NCBI GenBank assembly: GCA_021732415.1
Contig: JAKFVC010000048.1
Span: forward strand, 1 to 64,000
Reading direction: 5' to 3'
From: Planctomycetaceae bacterium
GTDB lineage: Bacteria; Planctomycetota; Planctomycetia; Planctomycetales; Planctomycetaceae
Length of the DNA: 64,000 bases
Shown here piece after piece: positions 43,892-63,098 of this stretch (its first letter is position 1; every line of letters begins with the position of its first letter). The notes beneath the pieces were generated by a model. It was not told where the DNA came from. It ran no database searches and worked only from the letters and a program-made list of their open reading frames with translations. The position numbers and the translations under genes were made by a program.

Positions 43892-44215
43892 GTCATTGAG
43901 TCATGCGTGCGGGGCCAACGGCCGAGCGCGCCGCGTCCGTCGCTCACCACGAATTCACCTTGAACACTCGGGCCGCCCTGCGGGGCGGCTTGGGGTGATT
44001 TTTCTTAACTATTGGCCGAATGGCTGCTTTGCTTGTTTCGATCGCGATTATGAAGGCAGCGGCATAGCACGGAGCCCAAAGTGCGGTGTAGTATCGGGGG
44101 CCAGCGGCCAGGTTGTCGCAAGTCCTTAGCGACAAAGACGCATCAGAATTGACAACTCCATGCTACACCGCGAAACTGCGGTAATACTCTACCGCACTTC
44201 GGCGGTCGAATACCT
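43892..44215. other. Intergenic stretch leading into the cassette cluster
   Basis: There is no supportable gene. A palindrome (TTGTCGC / GCGACAA) lies at 44112-44136. ACAAC at 44150 and a stem-loop-rich run up to 44216 could be a further diverged attC site, but the match is partial. Confidence 0.35.
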
Positions 44216-44216
44216 G

Positions 44217-44470
44217 TTGTTTCGACACATGGGCCGCGATGTGATTCAGAACGAAATTTGACAATGGGTCGCGCTCATGTTACACCGCGCATGCGGCCTC
44301 GGCGGCATAGCATGGAAGCTGATGCCGACTGTCGGCAGCAGCGCGGAGAGGATGCGACCCTGTCGGAATGCGCTGTTGTATACCTTGGGTGGCAATGGTG
44401 CGAAACAACAAGGCGTTCCAGCCGACAACAGTCAGCCATCCATGCTGACCATTGCGGCTGAACTTTTTCG
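44217..44470. other. Gene cassette without a clear gene
   Basis: This 254-base unit begins at GTTGTTTCG (44216-44224) and ends in the attC site at 44401-44477, whose inner arm CGAAACAAC (44401-44409) is the exact complement of the unit's own start. This is the rule for an integrated cassette. I find no convincing open frame; it may be non-coding or carry a promoter. Confidence 0.55.
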
Positions 44471-44477
44471 TTAGGAC
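44401..44477 (+). repeat. attC-like site 1
   Basis: Outer arms are CGAAACAAC and CGTTAGGAC. Inner arms GTTCCAGCCG and CGGCTGAAC pair with one extra base, giving the bulged hairpin typical of attC. A central spacer of about 20 bases includes CAGC/GCTG. Confidence 0.65.
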
Positions 44478-44484
44478 GCACTCG

Positions 44485-44937
44485 GTGACATCGCAAGTCT
44501 TAACCGACGCAGACTTCGATTCGACGTCTTGGCACGACAATCACATTCACGCTGTCCGCTTCATCGAAGGGAAGGACGGCACAGGCGACTTAGAGCTCGA
44601 CTTAGACCACATCGTTGAATGGCTCAAAGGCGAACGAAGCGGCTTTAAGTTCAAGGTCGTTCCGGTCACTCTGACCTTTCACGAGGTCATGTTTCCACGC
44701 ATCGCAATCGACTATGGCGCGGCTTCGGCCGCTTTTGGCCCCATCATGATTCATGGCATCGAGCGCCGTACTGAACAGAAGGCACATTACGTGGCCACAA
44801 TTTGGAAAGTTCCTTGCACATTCCCTCCCGGCGAGATGGAATTCGAGGCCAGCGGCTTCACCCAAATAGCACGAGGACAGCCAGTGTTGAGCGATTCGCA
44901 ATCCCTGAGCCCCGCCGATCGCGTAAGTGCGTCCTAA
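44485..44937 (+). CDS. Cassette-borne hypothetical protein
   Basis: A 150-residue protein starts at a GTG eight bases after the cassette boundary region. DSTSWHDNHIHAVRFIEG, LELDLDHIVEWLKGE and VPVTLTFHEVMFPRIAIDYG match a family of small proteins of unknown function, seen to my knowledge in integron cassettes and elsewhere. The stop codon TAA lies inside the outer arm of attC site 2 (CCTAAC), a classic cassette feature. No ribosome site is obvious, so expression probably depends on read-through from upstream. Confidence 0.75.
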   Translation: MTSQVLTDADFDSTSWHDNHIHAVRFIEGKDGTGDLELDLDHIVEWLKGERSGFKFKVVPVTLTFHEVMFPRIAIDYGAASAAFGPIMIHGIERRTEQKAHYVATIWKVPCTFPPGEMEFEASGFTQIARGQPVLSDSQSLSPADRVSAS

Positions 44938-45022
44938 CAAATCGCTGGAGCGGACGCGTGATAGGTAAAGTGCCAAGCTCATACATCGGCGTGCGCGCCG
45001 CTCAGCTCAACCGTTATGCGGC
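44927..45022 (+). repeat. attC-like site 2
   Basis: The outer arm GTGCGTCCTAAC is the exact complement of its cassette's start (GTTAGGACGCAC, 44470-44481): 12 of 12. The inner arms ATCGCTGGAGCGG and CCGCTCAGCTCAACC pair with bulged bases, and GTTATGCGGC closes the site. Confidence 0.75.
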
Positions 45023-45031
45023 GAGGTTTCC

Positions 45032-45604
45032 GTGAGCATTCCTTGCCTAAAATGCGGTCGCCTGTATACCTTCGACGGGAAGCGGTGCTGCAACAAGTAC
45101 TGCCGCTATGGATCGGATCAGAAGCCCAAGATCGACTTCAAGGCGGTCCGTCATCAGCGATTCCTTTCCGATGGAGGGCGAAAAGCCATCGCAGTCTGGG
45201 TTCCCGCGTGGTATGAACTGGACCCACCCATGTTGGAAGTCGGGCTGACGGCAGAGTTTTCCTTTTGCCGTGATGTCTCGCAAGGTCTGCTTGGGAATGA
45301 GCCGTTGGTTTTCTACACCGGTCTTGCTGGCGGCCAGATTGATATTGCGTGGGGAACAATCGCGGCGATTCATCACGCTGATTTCGGTTCAATTCGAACA
45401 ATCAGCGCGCGAGGGTTGGATTACACGATTGTGCTGGAGAACGGCAAGCAGTTCATCGTAAATGCGGAAGAGAATCCCGGGCAGTTGTACGAGCAGCATG
45501 AGCAAGAATGGACTGAATCAGCGCTTGCCATCTCCGATTGGCGATTCACAGTTGAGTTCTCAGCCCTTGCGGAGGGGGAACCTGCCGAGCCCCGCTCCAC
45601 TTGA
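45032..45604 (+). CDS. Cassette-borne protein with N-terminal Cys cluster
   Basis: 190 residues from a GTG start. MSIPCLKCGRLYTFDGKRCC has C-x2-C and further cysteines (C-N-K-Y-C), suggesting a small zinc ribbon. The rest is a beta-rich domain (VWVPAWYELDPPMLEVGLTA, LVFYTGLAGGQID, ARGLDYTIVLENGKQFIVN). I do not recognise the family. It lies between attC sites 2 and 3, so it is a mobile cassette gene. Its AT content is higher than that of the surrounding genes. Confidence 0.7.
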   Translation: MSIPCLKCGRLYTFDGKRCCNKYCRYGSDQKPKIDFKAVRHQRFLSDGGRKAIAVWVPAWYELDPPMLEVGLTAEFSFCRDVSQGLLGNEPLVFYTGLAGGQIDIAWGTIAAIHHADFGSIRTISARGLDYTIVLENGKQFIVNAEENPGQLYEQHEQEWTESALAISDWRFTVEFSALAEGEPAEPRST

Positions 45605-45623
45605 CTGTCGCTCGGAGGGCGAG

Positions 45624-45730
45624 GGCCGCATAACAAACGGATGAAGCTGACCGGGGCCGCCATCCTGGTTTCGCGCGGCATGAAGGTCTTGCAGGCGGCC
45701 CCGGCAGCTTATCCTTATCGTTATGCGGTA
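45624..45730 (+). repeat. attC-like site 3
   Basis: This is the best of the three sites. The outer arm GGCCGCATAAC is complementary to the cassette start GTTATGCGGC (45013-45022) at ten positions. The inner arms GGATGAAGCTGACCGGGGCC and GGCCCCGGCAGCTTATCC pair along their length with two unpaired bases (one G, one A), the extrahelical bases that set attC strand choice. CGTTATGCGG closes the site. Confidence 0.85.
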
Positions 45731-45759
45731 TAGTGCACGCTATGGCGTAGGAGTAACAG

Positions 45760-46038
45760 ATGAGTGATAGCGCAAACCGAGAAGTTCGATTGCAAATGCG
45801 TGACGCAAAACGTCTGTTTGCTTCTGCCGACAAGATATTCTACTTTCTTGGCGGCATCTTCTTCAGCGAGATGCTGTTTGCCTTCACTGGCTCCCGTATT
45901 GAAATCAACTATTTGGGCCTCGCATTTGCATCGGTTATTGTCATGGGTACCGCCTTGGTCATCTGTCGCGCTGTTATTCGCATGCGGAAGGCAGGAGTCT
46001 GTAGCGTAGATAGCAGCGGCAATTCGCTTCAAAAGTGA
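45760..46038 (+). CDS. Cassette-borne small membrane protein
   Basis: The 92-residue protein has a charged N-terminus (SDSANREVRLQMRDAKRLFA) and two transmembrane helices (FYFLGGIFFSEMLFAF and YLGLAFASVIVMGTALVIC). The cassette begins with GTTATGCGGTATAGT at 45720. No matching attC follows the gene (ACCGCATAAC would be expected). The array therefore ends here, either cut off or joined to the WD40 gene by deletion. The function is unknown. Confidence 0.65.
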   Translation: MSDSANREVRLQMRDAKRLFASADKIFYFLGGIFFSEMLFAFTGSRIEINYLGLAFASVIVMGTALVICRAVIRMRKAGVCSVDSSGNSLQK

Positions 46039-46069
46039 ATCAGTTCTTTCAAATCACCGGAGGCAAGCG

Positions 46070-47113
46070 ATGGCACCGGATGTGAAACAAGGGCGGCGGG
46101 TGACGGCGTGGCTGGGCGTCGCCTGCCTGGGACTGCTGCCGGTGTCGTTCCTTTCGGCACAAGAACCCCAACTGCGGGCCACCCTCAAGGGGCATACGAA
46201 TGCGGTCGTGGCCGTGACATTCAGCCCGGATGGCATGACCCTGGCCTCAGCCAGCTACGACGGGACTCTGAAACTGTGGGACATGACCACAGGCAAGGAG
46301 CGAGCAACCCTGGGCGAGTACCGGGGCTGTCTCGGCTGTGTGGCGTTCTCCCCCGACGGGAAGACCCTGGCATCGGGGACAATCGGATCGCCTGGTTACT
46401 TTCCCGACCTCATGGACGTCAAGTTGTGGGACGTGCCCACCGGCAAGGTACGGACCACCCTCACGGGGGATACGTTCCATGTACACTCTGTGACCTTCAG
46501 CCCGGATGGCAGAACCCTGGCCTCGTTGAACGGCGATGTCAAGCTCTGGGACTTGGCCAGCAACAAAGAGCGAGCCACCCTCCCAGGGCATACCACCGAG
46601 GATCTGGAGACCAGCGAACCTGCATACGGTGTCCGGTCCGTGGCGTTCAGCCCGGATGGCAAGACGCTGGCGGCAGCGGCCCATGACAGGACCGTCAAGG
46701 TCTGGGACGTGGCCACCGCCAAGCGGTCCACCCTTCAGGGGCATACCCATGCGGTCTATGGCGTGGCCTTCAGCTCGGATGGCAAGACCCTAGCATCGGC
46801 GAGCGGCGACAAGACCGTCAAGCTCTGGGATCTGGCCACCAGCAAAGAGCGGGCCTCCCCGCACGGTCATACCGAGTCGGTCATGTCCGTAGCGTTCTGC
46901 GCGGATGGGAAGACCCTGGCTTCAGCCAGTCGCGACAAGACCGTCAAGTTCTGGGATGTGGTCACCGGCAAGGAACGAGCCACCCTCGCAGGGACCGAGG
47001 CAGTCTGGTCCGTGGCATTCAGCCCAGACGGTCTGCTGTTCGCTTCTGCTGGTGGGACCATCGCCAACGCGCCGGGTGAGTTGAAGGTCTGGGACATTGC
47101 CACCGGCAGGTAG
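46070..47113 (+). CDS. Secreted WD40-repeat protein
   Basis: 347 residues. A signal peptide (VTAWLGVACLGLLPVSFLSA) is followed by seven WD40 repeats, each with a recognisable GHT...V-FSPDG-TLASAS-D-T-KLWD core. One example is LKGHTNAVVAVTFSPDGMTL and a later one is HAVYGVAFSSDGKTLASASG. This is enough for one closed seven-blade propeller. Exported WD40 proteins are common in planctomycetes and serve as binding platforms. The partner is unknown. CGGAGG precedes the ATG at good spacing. Confidence 0.9.
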   Translation: MAPDVKQGRRVTAWLGVACLGLLPVSFLSAQEPQLRATLKGHTNAVVAVTFSPDGMTLASASYDGTLKLWDMTTGKERATLGEYRGCLGCVAFSPDGKTLASGTIGSPGYFPDLMDVKLWDVPTGKVRTTLTGDTFHVHSVTFSPDGRTLASLNGDVKLWDLASNKERATLPGHTTEDLETSEPAYGVRSVAFSPDGKTLAAAAHDRTVKVWDVATAKRSTLQGHTHAVYGVAFSSDGKTLASASGDKTVKLWDLATSKERASPHGHTESVMSVAFCADGKTLASASRDKTVKFWDVVTGKERATLAGTEAVWSVAFSPDGLLFASAGGTIANAPGELKVWDIATGR

Positions 47114-47269
47114 GCGGGCGGGTGGGGCTGATCATCTGCGGAACAGACCTTTTCAATAGCGGGCCGAACCATGCGGTAAACTCAAGCGGCGGATCGGGCG
47201 GTCATTGAAATCCACGGTTCTTGGCCGCCGCCGGGTTACCTGGGGCGTTCGGCGGCTGGAGTGCATCAC

Positions 47270-47785
47270 ATGTCAGAGGTTGGTCGGAGATGGGGCAAAC
47301 GACTGCTCTGGGTTCTGCCGGTGTTGTTGGCCATTTACTGCATTGGAAATCTCGCTGACTTCGTATGGTTCCGCAGCCAGGTTCCGATCGGATTTCAAAA
47401 TGCCAACTGGTCCGGCAGTTGGCAAACGGAGCAGTACGGCAGCTTGTCTGGCAGACTGCTCGTCCGGTTGCCTGACCCACTCCCGGAGGCTCAGGGCTTT
47501 CGGGCCGAGGCGCTCGTCTATTATCCGATCTACAGCGTGTGGAAGACCGGGCAGTTTGTCAAAATGGATTTTGCCGGGCAGTTCAGCCCGGATGCACCCA
47601 CCTCAGCCGGGCAGTCCACGAACTCGATTCCCAGTGGCGGCGGGAAACTAAAATTTCAAGGCGTCGCAGGCGACCAAGTTGTCGAATACGTGGCAATTCT
47701 GGACCCGACGCGGACTAAGATTGTCGGCGGCTACCGATCCCGCTCGCCCTCCGACTACGGCTACTTCACGATCAGATACTACTGA
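47270..47785 (+). CDS. Membrane-anchored hypothetical protein
   Basis: 171 residues. MSEVGRRWGKRLLWVLPVLL is a basic N-terminus leading into one transmembrane segment (residues 13-30). The remainder is a beta-rich outer domain (ANWSGSWQTEQYGSLSGRLL, GKLKFQGVAGDQVVEYVAIL). A GTG three codons upstream is an alternative start. I do not recognise the family. Confidence 0.6.
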   Translation: MSEVGRRWGKRLLWVLPVLLAIYCIGNLADFVWFRSQVPIGFQNANWSGSWQTEQYGSLSGRLLVRLPDPLPEAQGFRAEALVYYPIYSVWKTGQFVKMDFAGQFSPDAPTSAGQSTNSIPSGGGKLKFQGVAGDQVVEYVAILDPTRTKIVGGYRSRSPSDYGYFTIRYY

Positions 47786-51894: not shown

Positions 51895-52335
51895 ATGGCG
51901 GAAATCTTTGTCCCCCTAAAAAGTCTCGGCGAGGTACCGGCGTCACACGCTGTCCAGATGCGGTACCTGCCGACTGCCGATCGATCGGTGTTCGGCACCA
52001 TCCGACTCGGCGTGGTCTTCGTCATGGCCTGGTGGAGCGGCGGGGCTCGGCAGGGGTTCGCCCAACTCAAGCAGGTGCTGGCTACCGTCGATCCGCGTGA
52101 CCGGCTGGAGTTGGTCGTGGTCGACACCGACGGTTGCCCGGACCTTTACGAGTGCCCGGAGTTCGCCGGCCAGTTACATGGGTGGGGCGAGGTCGCGTGG
52201 GTGCGAGACGGGCAGGTGGTCGGCACGTCGGGCCTGGGCTATCATCCCGAGTGCTTGGAGTCTTTTACGCGGGAACTGCTGGCAAGCACCACTCACACCG
52301 AATTGGGCGCTGCATCGGAACGGGGCCGTAGTTAG
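51895..52335 (+). CDS. Hypothetical protein (146 aa)
   Basis: FGTIRLGVVFVMAWWSGGAR and RLELVVVDTDGCPDLYECPE form an alternating alpha/beta pattern that loosely recalls a thioredoxin fold without its CxxC. I cannot name it. The ATG at 51895 is the first Met of the well-composed part of the frame. Confidence 0.5.
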   Translation: MAEIFVPLKSLGEVPASHAVQMRYLPTADRSVFGTIRLGVVFVMAWWSGGARQGFAQLKQVLATVDPRDRLELVVVDTDGCPDLYECPEFAGQLHGWGEVAWVRDGQVVGTSGLGYHPECLESFTRELLASTTHTELGAASERGRS

Positions 52336-53957
52336 CGTTTCTGGGATTTGTGCATGGCTAGTATTCGGACTTCCCCCAGTCCATATCACCGGCCTGGTAG
52401 TGAACGTCGTCATTCGGCGATGCGGACATGGTGGTTGAGTTGCCGGCCACGGTGTGTCCCATCGGCGACCCCGTGAGGGCATCCCTGTGGCAGCGCCCGG
52501 GGCGTGCGTCGCTCTCGCTCGCTGCGGCTGAACGGCACCGAGATCGCCACCACGGCTCGGCCACACCCACCCGTCAGCTCCTCTACATCCTGGGGAACCC
52601 TTCGCGGGGGCTGTGTCGCCCCCCTCCCAATGGCCCCACCCGTCGCTTCTGGAAGGGGCTTGCTAAGCACCCGAGTCATGATGAAGTACAAGTACCTCGG
52701 AATCCGGGGCCAGTTCGGCAAGGCTCCCGTCGACGTCAAAGAGCACGTCGGAGGACGTAATGGCCGGGCTAAACGGCGCGTGAGAGCGGGGGTGAGGCAG
52801 GCACTGAGAGCCCTCCCCGGATCACCAACCAGAGAAATGCGAGCGCTCACAGTCCCACATCCAGAGAGTGCGACGCATGGAAAAACCGGCTTTAAGGTCG
52901 ATTTGGCGGGTGCTAAAGTCACAGCACACGGAAAAGAGCACGAGAGATAAGAAGTTACAGCGATTTTCGCCCGGCGAGTGATTGCGAAATCGCCAACGAC
53001 CCTTGATTTCATGCGTCAACACGCACCGATATCAACGGATGCCCTGACCCAGGGAAGCCGTTTTCGAGGTTTGCCCGTGATTTGCCAAGTCGTTAGGAGC
53101 GTTTACATGCGCGTATGGGTCACATTGTGTGGGCGGGTCGGCGAACTCACTGCCGCGATTGCACTGGCAATCCACCGTGGGGAAAACTCACAGAGAATTG
53201 AGCACAGGTAATCGGTCGGCAGCCCCCCTTCGAAGGGCTCACAGGGGCGGCGTTTGTCGCCCTCCCAGTGAGGTGCCCAGCCGTCATGCGGACGCAGGCA
53301 GTGTAAAGGCGTGAATTGCGAGAAGTCCTCAACCGTTCCAGATTCCTGTTCTCGGCCAGCGGTGCCCACTGCGTCCCTGCGGACGCTTCACGCCCCCATT
53401 GGACGATCTCCCCCGGGGACGACTCCCCACGATTCTGAGGTGGCTAGCAGCGTATTGGAAGCCGCGATCTTTGGACAAGATTCTGCAAAAGTTGCGAATC
53501 GGTAGCGGCCGAGATCGCCGTGGGCGAACGTGCTGGCGTCGCTGCCAACACACGGTCCACATCCCTCTTTGAACCCCCTCCGCGGAGGCGTCTCGACCGC
53601 CTCGCAGAGCCTTGTTCAGAGGCTTCAAGCAAGCCTCGCAACGCGACCCTCCAGCCCCGTCGACTGATGGCCCCTGACAGCCTAGCGGCATCGGCTGGAC
53701 CCAGCCTGACCTCCGCAGTTCCGCCCCAGGGAGCCGGAGCGTCGACGTCAGCCAACCAGCCGTCTCAGGGCACATGCACGGCCGCCCCCCTGCTGAACAT
53801 GTATTTTGAACCCAAGCGTCGGACGGAAGTTGAAACCTGTGCCTGAATGGCCGGTTTCGCAATTCCACAGTACTTCACTGGTCGGCAACTGCATGCCTTA
53901 GTTGAGAATTCCACCCGGTGACGGCTGTATCAGTTCGACTCCTATCCATTCTAACCC
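52336..53957. other. 1.6-kb stretch without a supportable gene, GC-rich repeats
   Basis: Every open frame here has unnatural composition and no motif. Three loosely similar GC-rich blocks stand out, near 52593-52660, 53218-53290 and 53569-53645. Each has an AACCCCC/TTCG start, an internal GGGGCGG/CCGCC pairing and a C-rich end. They could be structured RNA, remains of mobile elements, or chance. No promoter is apparent. The region borders the reverse-transcriptase operon. Confidence 0.4.
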
Positions 53958-61466: not shown

Positions 61467-63098
61467 TCATTCAACGGGTGTCGACGATTGCTGTTCCCGG
61501 AACTGCTGAATATGCCGACTGACTGTCGGGCTCGACACTCCCACTGCCGCCGCGATCTGCCCCGTCGGCAATCCCTGCTCGTGCAGGGTGATGATCCGCT
61601 CAATGACGGACCTTTTCGTGTATGCCTGGGGCTGGGGTGAAAATGGGGTCGGGCCGGCCTCGGCGAACACTGGGCCGAGGTACGTCTCGACGGCGCGGAT
61701 TGCGCGAAACACTTTGCCGAAGGGGCGGTTCGTATACGCGTCCGACAGAGAATCTGTTTTAACCGGCTCGCCGTGGCAATCAAACACGCCTGCGATTTCG
61801 CCATCCGAGTGGCGTTTAATCAGATCGCTCGCCGTCTTGCGCAGTTTGCCGAAGGACAAGGGGCGAACTTCCTGCCCGTCGTCGCGTATGCGCTCGATGA
61901 GCCGAGCGAACTGGTTGGGAATCGCCTGATTGGCATTGCTGCCTTTGGTCTGTTGGTCGAACGGCGCTCCTTTCTCGTTGAGAATCAGGCGGGACGACTT
62001 GGCGAAATCGGGAAATTGCTCTCGACGTTCGCGGGCCCACTCCAGGGCCTGAACCGTAAGGGGAAACAGGATATGTTCGCCGTACACACCGCTCTTTCGG
62101 CGGATGCGTTTGATGAAGCTGTCGCTGTCGGTCGTCTCAAAGCCCAGGATTTCCTGCTCGCGAGGCGAGTGCCCCTTCCGAATGTGGACTTCTCCGACGA
62201 GCAGCGAGGCGATCTCGGCCCGTCCGAAGCCGCAGTTCAACCCGAGCAGTAGCAATAGCCGGTCGAAGGGCTGGCCGTACCGCATCAGCAGACGTAACTC
62301 ATCTAGTGAGAACGTATCGACCTGCTCCAGGCTGCGCTTGGCATGGTCGCTGGGGAGCCGACGAATGCGTCGATCGAAATCGTTGAAGGCTTGGGGCTTC
62401 GTCCATTCAAACTCACTGGTGCTGTGCAGCCACGTCAGAAACCGCATCAGGGTTCCGAGGTAATGGCTGGCCGCTTTGGCGCTGATGGGCTCGGTGCTCC
62501 CGAGTTTACAGGGACGGCGACGCCAGTAACCGATCAACTCGCCGACGGCCGTCGCGTCGAGCTGGCTCAAGAGCTGGTCGGGGTGATGGTGTTGGAGATT
62601 TTTGATCTGCCGCACTTGAATTCTTCCCCACGGCGAGATGTGCCCCGTTTCCTGCCGAAAGAACTCTTTTTGTAAATAGCCCTGAAAGCGTTTGAATGCC
62701 TGATGCAGGGTGGCCGACAGCGATCGCGTCGGCATGGTTTTCGGGTTGGGGACACTCGGTCCTGAAGGCACCCGTGATGCGGACTGCGGAGCAGCGTCTG
62801 TGGGCCGAGCGGCGGGATCGCTGGGCTTGAGAATCCCCAGCCGATCAAGCTCGCTCCAGGAGTTTTTTGACGGGGCAGGGGTGAGTCCGAGAACGGGATC
62901 AGCCGAGATGCCTGCCTCATGCGCGAGCTGCTGAATTTTCACCCGTGCCCGCGCTTGGTCGTCCGTCAGCGGTTCGACCTTGATGTTCTGAGTGGTGTTC
63001 GGGATGGCCTCGAAGAGTTCCAGCGCGGCCTGCCCGATCTCGTATGCGTGCTGGTCTTCGGGGATGAAGCAGATCGGCAAGTAAAAAGTAGACCACAC
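61467..63098 (-). CDS. Tyrosine recombinase with C-terminal helix-turn-helix
   Basis: 543 residues. After a variable N-terminus (start GTG at 63098, uncertain), a SAM-like DNA-binding domain spans residues 170-290. The catalytic part has box I LLLGLNCGFGRAEIASL (first Arg), FGKLRKTASDLI (second Arg; the H of H-x-x-R is Gly), VFDCHG (His) and DAYTNRPFGKVF (Tyr nucleophile). The last 45 residues form an added HTH (AAAVGVSSPTVSRHIQQF). It may mobilise an element whose edge lies nearby. It faces the decayed SDR and the truncated gene at 63220. Confidence 0.75.
   Translation of the reverse strand: MWSTFYLPICFIPEDQHAYEIGQAALELFEAIPNTTQNIKVEPLTDDQARARVKIQQLAHEAGISADPVLGLTPAPSKNSWSELDRLGILKPSDPAARPTDAAPQSASRVPSGPSVPNPKTMPTRSLSATLHQAFKRFQGYLQKEFFRQETGHISPWGRIQVRQIKNLQHHHPDQLLSQLDATAVGELIGYWRRRPCKLGSTEPISAKAASHYLGTLMRFLTWLHSTSEFEWTKPQAFNDFDRRIRRLPSDHAKRSLEQVDTFSLDELRLLMRYGQPFDRLLLLLGLNCGFGRAEIASLLVGEVHIRKGHSPREQEILGFETTDSDSFIKRIRRKSGVYGEHILFPLTVQALEWARERREQFPDFAKSSRLILNEKGAPFDQQTKGSNANQAIPNQFARLIERIRDDGQEVRPLSFGKLRKTASDLIKRHSDGEIAGVFDCHGEPVKTDSLSDAYTNRPFGKVFRAIRAVETYLGPVFAEAGPTPFSPQPQAYTKRSVIERIITLHEQGLPTGQIAAAVGVSSPTVSRHIQQFREQQSSTPVE

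Follow-up and report, generated by a model that had tools for sequence, protein, structure and literature searches.

The region that begins at position 44216 of the 64,000-nucleotide window analysed here (the whole stretch of planctomycete DNA under study) holds gene cassettes of the integron type with no integron integrase beside them, and this raises the question of whether we are looking at stray cassettes or at what is left of an integron. A preliminary description had placed three attC-like sites with bulged hairpins between 44216 and 46038, and these are borne out by their structure. All three, namely attC1 (44403-44476), attC2 (44932-45019) and attC3 (45628-45726), share the attC layout in full detail: R'' ending in AAC, 5 nt, a 9-nt L'', a variable hairpin, an 8-nt L', 6 nt, and GTT. 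The L boxes pair at 8 of 8 positions in each site, and the 9-nt L'' carries one extrahelical base, which occupies the identical position in these sites and in a fourth one described below. R boxes are fully paired in two of the attC sites (7/7 in attC3), while those of attC1 pair only at AAC/GTT, as is expected where two different cassettes meet. With the exact L-box spacing, shuffled window DNA gave 0.45 sites per strand at L pairing of at least 7 and 0.1 at L pairing of 8; a plain R''/R' regular-expression scan was too noisy, and it was this exact spacing that worked instead. Moreover, the preliminary description had proposed a check with a covariance model, and our independent model R1, trained on 34 attC sites from relatives and from other contigs of the genome with none from the window, scored attC1 (29.9 bits, E = 2.3e-6), attC2 (E = 3.1e-8) and attC3 (E = 7.4e-14) well above background, these E-values being per 64 kb and rough because the model calibration was short. 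Rfam gave zero matches within the window at the gathering threshold. At 52297-52418, R1 also matched weakly (E = 0.004), but the attC layout is absent there and we do not claim a site.

The array also runs further than the 46038 end first given to it, as a fourth attC (47163-47253) is located 3' of a WD40 gene. This site has the highest R1 score (75.2 bits, E = 1e-19), its L boxes form 7 pairs and a wobble with spacers of 5 and 6 nt, and relatives of it are present in the arrays of many genomes. All four attC sites are on the plus strand, as are the cassettes and their genes. Cassettes 1 (44216-44469), 2 (44470-45012) and 3 (45013-45719) start with sequence complementary to their own R'' over 9, 13 and 10 contiguous nucleotides, respectively, which agrees with the earlier counts for the first and third, the middle one being 13 and not 12. 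No convincing ORF was found in cassette 1. This cassette does contain scraps of 13-18 nt that are like attI motifs (GCGGCATAGCATGGAAGC at 44302 and CATGTTACACCGCG at 44276) and that, on weak statistics, are possibly a scrambled attI fragment. Cassette 2 has an ORF of 150 codons (44485-44937), whose stop codon lies inside the outer arm, as had been pointed out (the TAA of CCTAAC within R'' of attC2). The protein has no match in Pfam, NCBIfam, PADLOC or PDB, and its homologs, at 28-47% identity, occur in 3 of the 170 genomes of the family, with no attC within about 1.5 kb of them. For the 190-residue protein of cassette 3 (45032-45604), which has a Cys-rich N-terminus, there was no significant family or PDB match, and it was not detected in any other of the 170 family genomes.

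Cassette 4 (45720-46049), with an ORF of 92 codons (45760-46038), has lost its 3' end and its attC. It starts with GTTATGC, whereas the next outer arm, which is that of the attC at 47163-47253, predicts GTTCGGCC, so that only 3 nt match. In the relative G033, the order is attC, then GTTCGGCC, then the start of a WD40 gene that is 92% identical to the one in the window over the 272 nt available (G033:C192:3835-4106). The mismatch and the G033 order together indicate that the WD40 gene (46070-47113, 347 codons) is a cassette gene, belonging to a cassette 5 (46050-47246) that has lost its 5' end and is joined to truncated cassette 4, presumably through a deletion near 46040-46050. The suggestion that the last cassette is truncated or joined to the WD40 gene was therefore a sound one, and the view of the cassettes as having no assignable function agrees with our profile and PDB searches, though the WD40 gene had been missed as a further cassette gene. 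The DNA 3' of the last attC (47247-47785), with an ORF at 47261-47785 and no attC downstream, is either a last cassette in which no attC can be recognised or the flank that originally lay to the right of the array's attI, to which we return below.

No integrase of the integron type is encoded in cis. The window contig (C30) has no TIGR02249 match at E ≤ 0.01, and the ORF at 61467-63098 on the minus strand, which had been called a tyrosine recombinase, has no Phage_integrase profile match and only a C-terminal HTH, so that this name is unsupported. The reported absence of an integrase thus stands for the contig but not for the genome. The search elsewhere that the preliminary description had recommended revealed one full-length IntI on contig C2 (C2:88253-89242, 420 bits), which has its own array, and some two dozen attC-like sites are found genome-wide over about 15 contigs. 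Several attC sites of the resident array (L018, G000:C2:70000-89999) have mutated crossover triplets (GGT, GAT), and this array looks partly decayed. Having at least four attC sites and no intI on its contig, with the nearest full IntI on C2, the cluster in the window was locally well labelled as a CALIN, but that label missed a retained attI. It has been proposed that CALINs are integrons in a degraded state.

The left end at 44216 had been placed correctly, since it is the crossover, but what lies 5' of it had been overlooked. A DNA comparison with 59 relatives revealed an element (44045-44218, plus strand), a repeat whose end coincides exactly with the first nucleotides of cassette 1, at the G|TT crossover (44216-44218). 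The family consensus is about 175-190 bp long, and the window element is 80% identical to it over 176 nt. Conservation extends to ...GGTCGAATACCT|GTT and not past GTT, and in nearly all pairwise comparisons the homology among copies stops at the crossover. Cassette insertion at genomic attG sites is published (Loot et al. 2024, as cited in PMC11023631), and CALINs distant from intI are common; had the cassettes been inserted at a random attG site in this way, the DNA upstream would be unrelated host sequence without a conserved platform. Instead, the upstream element belongs to one homologous family that stops at GTT in unrelated loci, and in four genomes it forms the spacer between intI and the cassettes, so that the attG reading is contradicted by the intI synteny of G119 and G177 (see below) and is, in our estimation, very unlikely.

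The element folds into a strong hairpin, which shows some covariation, and it occurs in many copies, as would an unrelated dispersed repeat (MITE- or REP-like) that happens to lie before cassettes. Its placement, on the other hand, is far from random. Among 57 copies, which are those fetched and were picked by similarity to a model that includes the GTT end, so that copies without that end are under-sampled, 39 have an attC downstream within 3.5 kb on the same strand and none has one on the opposite strand, with contig ends concealing some downstream sites. In 19 of these 39, the first cassette start is complementary to its own outer arm over at least 7 nt, as compared with a mean of 2.6 and a maximum of 8 in 5000 shuffles. 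This fixed orientation and exact cassette boundary, together with the position of the element next to intI and the intI codons in its left part, contradict a chance association, which we regard as extremely improbable.

The identity of the element is best seen in those relatives where intI is still present. An intact and divergent intI directly adjoins it in G119 and G177, with the element as the spacer towards the cassette side, and a truncated intI is found at the same place in G197 and G199. Here, the intI start codon sits inside the left part of the element, where the intI of G119 and G177 begins with MPQ. Three of the four element-linked integrases (G119, G177 and G197) were long enough to be placed in a tree, and these form one clade with 68-73% identity and a support of 1.00. 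Moreover, about ten solo copies retain intI scraps beside the element, and at one locus (L086) an N-terminal piece of intI is joined to the last ~40 codons of the gene. The first 21 genomes had suggested that the element is never beside intI, but a wider search of the family disproved this. We rejected a reading of the element as attC, since it has no L boxes and R1 gives no match to it in its copies. Nor does it seem to belong to some larger mobile gene unit, as copies outside G035 have no flanking gene in common. By virtue of its spacer position beside intact or truncated intI of one clade, and of the intI scraps next to solo copies, we conclude from synteny that the element is the attI belonging to one lineage of integrons, and that its copy in the window is a solo attI. 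The G|TT crossover at the first cassette is present both in the family and in the window, there with the 9-nt own-arm complement, while the position between intI and first cassette is seen in G119, G177, G197 and G199 and not in the window copy. Among the other IntI-linked attI sites in the family, some share a core resembling GTC[G/T]AAT ahead of GTT, such as GTCGAATCAATT|GTT in G091.

In the window, attI is linked to at most a five-codon stub of intI. On the minus strand at 44048-44065, which is the intI start position of the intact relatives, the sequence ATG CCG CTG CCT TCA TAA would read MPLPS*, a possible remnant of the lost intI, though these five codons are weak by themselves. As no more than these codons are kept, it is from the relatives that we infer the deletion of intI in this copy. 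The retained attI, in turn, argues that the cluster is an integrase-deleted integron and not a set of stray cassettes. The resident IntI may not be able to use this attI, because it shares 53% identity with the G119/G177/G197 integrases and falls in a separate clade, because its own attI (GACGTCTTTAGACTTCTT|GTT) is unlike the window element, and because IntI enzymes, going by the title of Collis 2002 (cited in PMC3108266), prefer their cognate attI.

Copies of the element number about 90 in the family, nearly all of them solo, and at a threshold of E ≤ 1e-5 they are present in 28 of 170 genomes, each of which has between 1 and about 19. The genome of the window has three solo attI sites besides the one described here (C37:35110, C64:5333 and C46:25385). 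In genus g33, each genome has 11-19 copies, which in G035 and G156 are spread round the chromosomes. No match to the element was obtained in phage, plasmid and viral collections. An exact search of GTDB for the core returned 22 contigs, all labelled planctomycetes except for one labelled Myxococcales (L144, PLNW01000002.1), which reflects either mis-binning or transfer. As 14 of 21 attI-bearing genomes have no IntI above the cut-off, many solo attI sites may be dead. The copies could have multiplied either by the decay of many separate integrons or by movement at the end of cassette-like units. At one locus of G035 (L069, G035:C1:2484000-2502000), there are three units of ~658 bp, each of which runs from a different attC crossover to the element crossover and is followed by different cassettes. 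Along with the finding that deltaattI-type cassettes are functional for IntI1 (PMC12901181), these units speak for the alternative that a mobile unit has the element as its 3' recombination site, and that the element was spread as a cassette end and not left behind by intI deletion. However, an attC lies within the 3.5 kb upstream in only 10 of the 57 copies, a variety of host genes precedes others, and the intI scraps are kept just where a deletion would be expected to leave them. Hence, we consider the mobile-unit explanation unlikely as a replacement for intI deletion, but the two are compatible, and such units may explain how the copies multiplied.

Whether cassettes still turn over at a solo attI can be judged in genus g33, in which there is no IntI (the best TIGR02249 matches reach about 80 bits) and where none was found in the effectively complete genomes G035 and G156. 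At three orthologous loci (L081/L167, L096/L170/L182, and L089/L171), the species can be aligned over kilobases of left flank and through the element, the intI-less junction is identical, and homology ends at GTT, downstream of which the cassettes differ. At L081/L167, the right flank resumes, and what lies between is one attC (1.6 kb) in G035 versus at least four (6.3 kb) in G156. Moreover, a 1,296-bp cassette that directly adjoins a solo attI in G156 has a counterpart of 99.85% identity in another species, G157, where it sits deeper in an array; GTT flanks the cassette on both sides, and its neighbours differ between the two genomes. The ORF of this cassette (L167:8080-9374), as judged by eye, resembles an AlbA_2/Schlafen-type protein. 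Cassette boundaries at GTT are what IntI acting in trans would yield, and homologous recombination would not readily produce them.

Loss alone can make two arrays differ, and some later segments are common to L096 and L170, which would agree with different deletions from a longer ancestral array, or with one-off events, and no insertion in trans. Nevertheless, the intI-less junction is common to the species, so that an IntI in trans would be required for losses exact at GTT as well, and a nearly identical cassette with different neighbours favours recent movement; loss by itself thus seems to us a rather improbable account. An ortholog pair with intI in one genome and without it in the other was not found in this comparison. 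Altogether, the turnover at these loci, which belong to genus g33 and not to the window's genus or locus, suggests that cassette exchange can continue at solo attI sites by means of an integrase whose gene lies elsewhere.

In our well-supported view, 44045-47253 represents an integron deprived of its integrase gene but not of its attI, one whose cassettes would go in and out by way of IntI in trans. The retained parts are the attI, with possibly the first intI codons, three intact cassettes, and cassette 4 fused to the WD40 cassette 5, whereas intI would have been lost by deletion. It is established for integrons that attC is recombined by IntI as a folded bottom strand, with G|TT chemistry. 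In the window, an IntI supplied in trans would recombine the folded bottom strand of a cassette attC with the double-stranded attI, the crossover falling between G and TT of GTT, and since it acts in trans, cassettes could enter and leave beside attI with no linked integrase gene. The window attI probably stays usable in this manner. More tentatively, and with somewhat less than even confidence, we propose that in this planctomycete family many chromosomal attI sites without their own intI keep exchanging cassettes via one trans integrase, resident elsewhere or visiting, which would give up to about 19 entry points per genome.

This analysis identifies the head of a CALIN as an attI without its intI. 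It also provides a series of intermediates, with intI intact, then truncated, then absent beside the attI, and it shows that species can have different cassettes at one and the same site lacking an integrase. Should solo attI sites work in trans, cassette capture would outlast the loss of the integrase, and one integrase would feed many loci. Moreover, whether a CALIN is dead becomes directly testable. According to PMC9024848, annotated genomes contain CALINs about as often as they contain complete integrons, and both CALINs and their mobilisation in trans are already known, insofar as treated in PMC12444791, PMC9668308 and PMC9024848. Dispersed solo attI platforms, of which we found no report in the open-access literature, appear to be undescribed so far, a provisional statement given that subscription papers were outside the search.

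Compared with known systems, the array in the window resembles a CALIN in its attC-bounded cassettes with no intI nearby, but it differs in keeping at its head a recognisable attI, one of a family dispersed in many copies. With a sedentary chromosomal integron (intI-attI-cassettes), of which G119 and G177 are intact members, it shares the same attI, attC and cassette order, although intI is missing from the window array and there are several platforms per genome. Those integrons of Xanthomonas whose intI is inactivated or lost, along with the CALINs found there at conserved loci (PMC12444791), are similar in their integrase loss and in having arrays at fixed loci, yet the passages of that account consulted for this comparison report neither solo attI copies nor cassette turnover at such copies after integrase loss. 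Sites of the attG type (Loot et al. 2024) likewise receive cassettes away from an integron platform, but these are genomic sites with a consensus, distinct from both attC and attI, at least as summarised in PMC12444791, whereas the window has a conserved element of ~175 bp. Lastly, deltaattI-type gene cassettes (PMC12901181) also use an attI-derived site away from the platform, but they are resistance cassettes of mobile integrons, while the solo attI sites described here are mostly chromosomal platforms.
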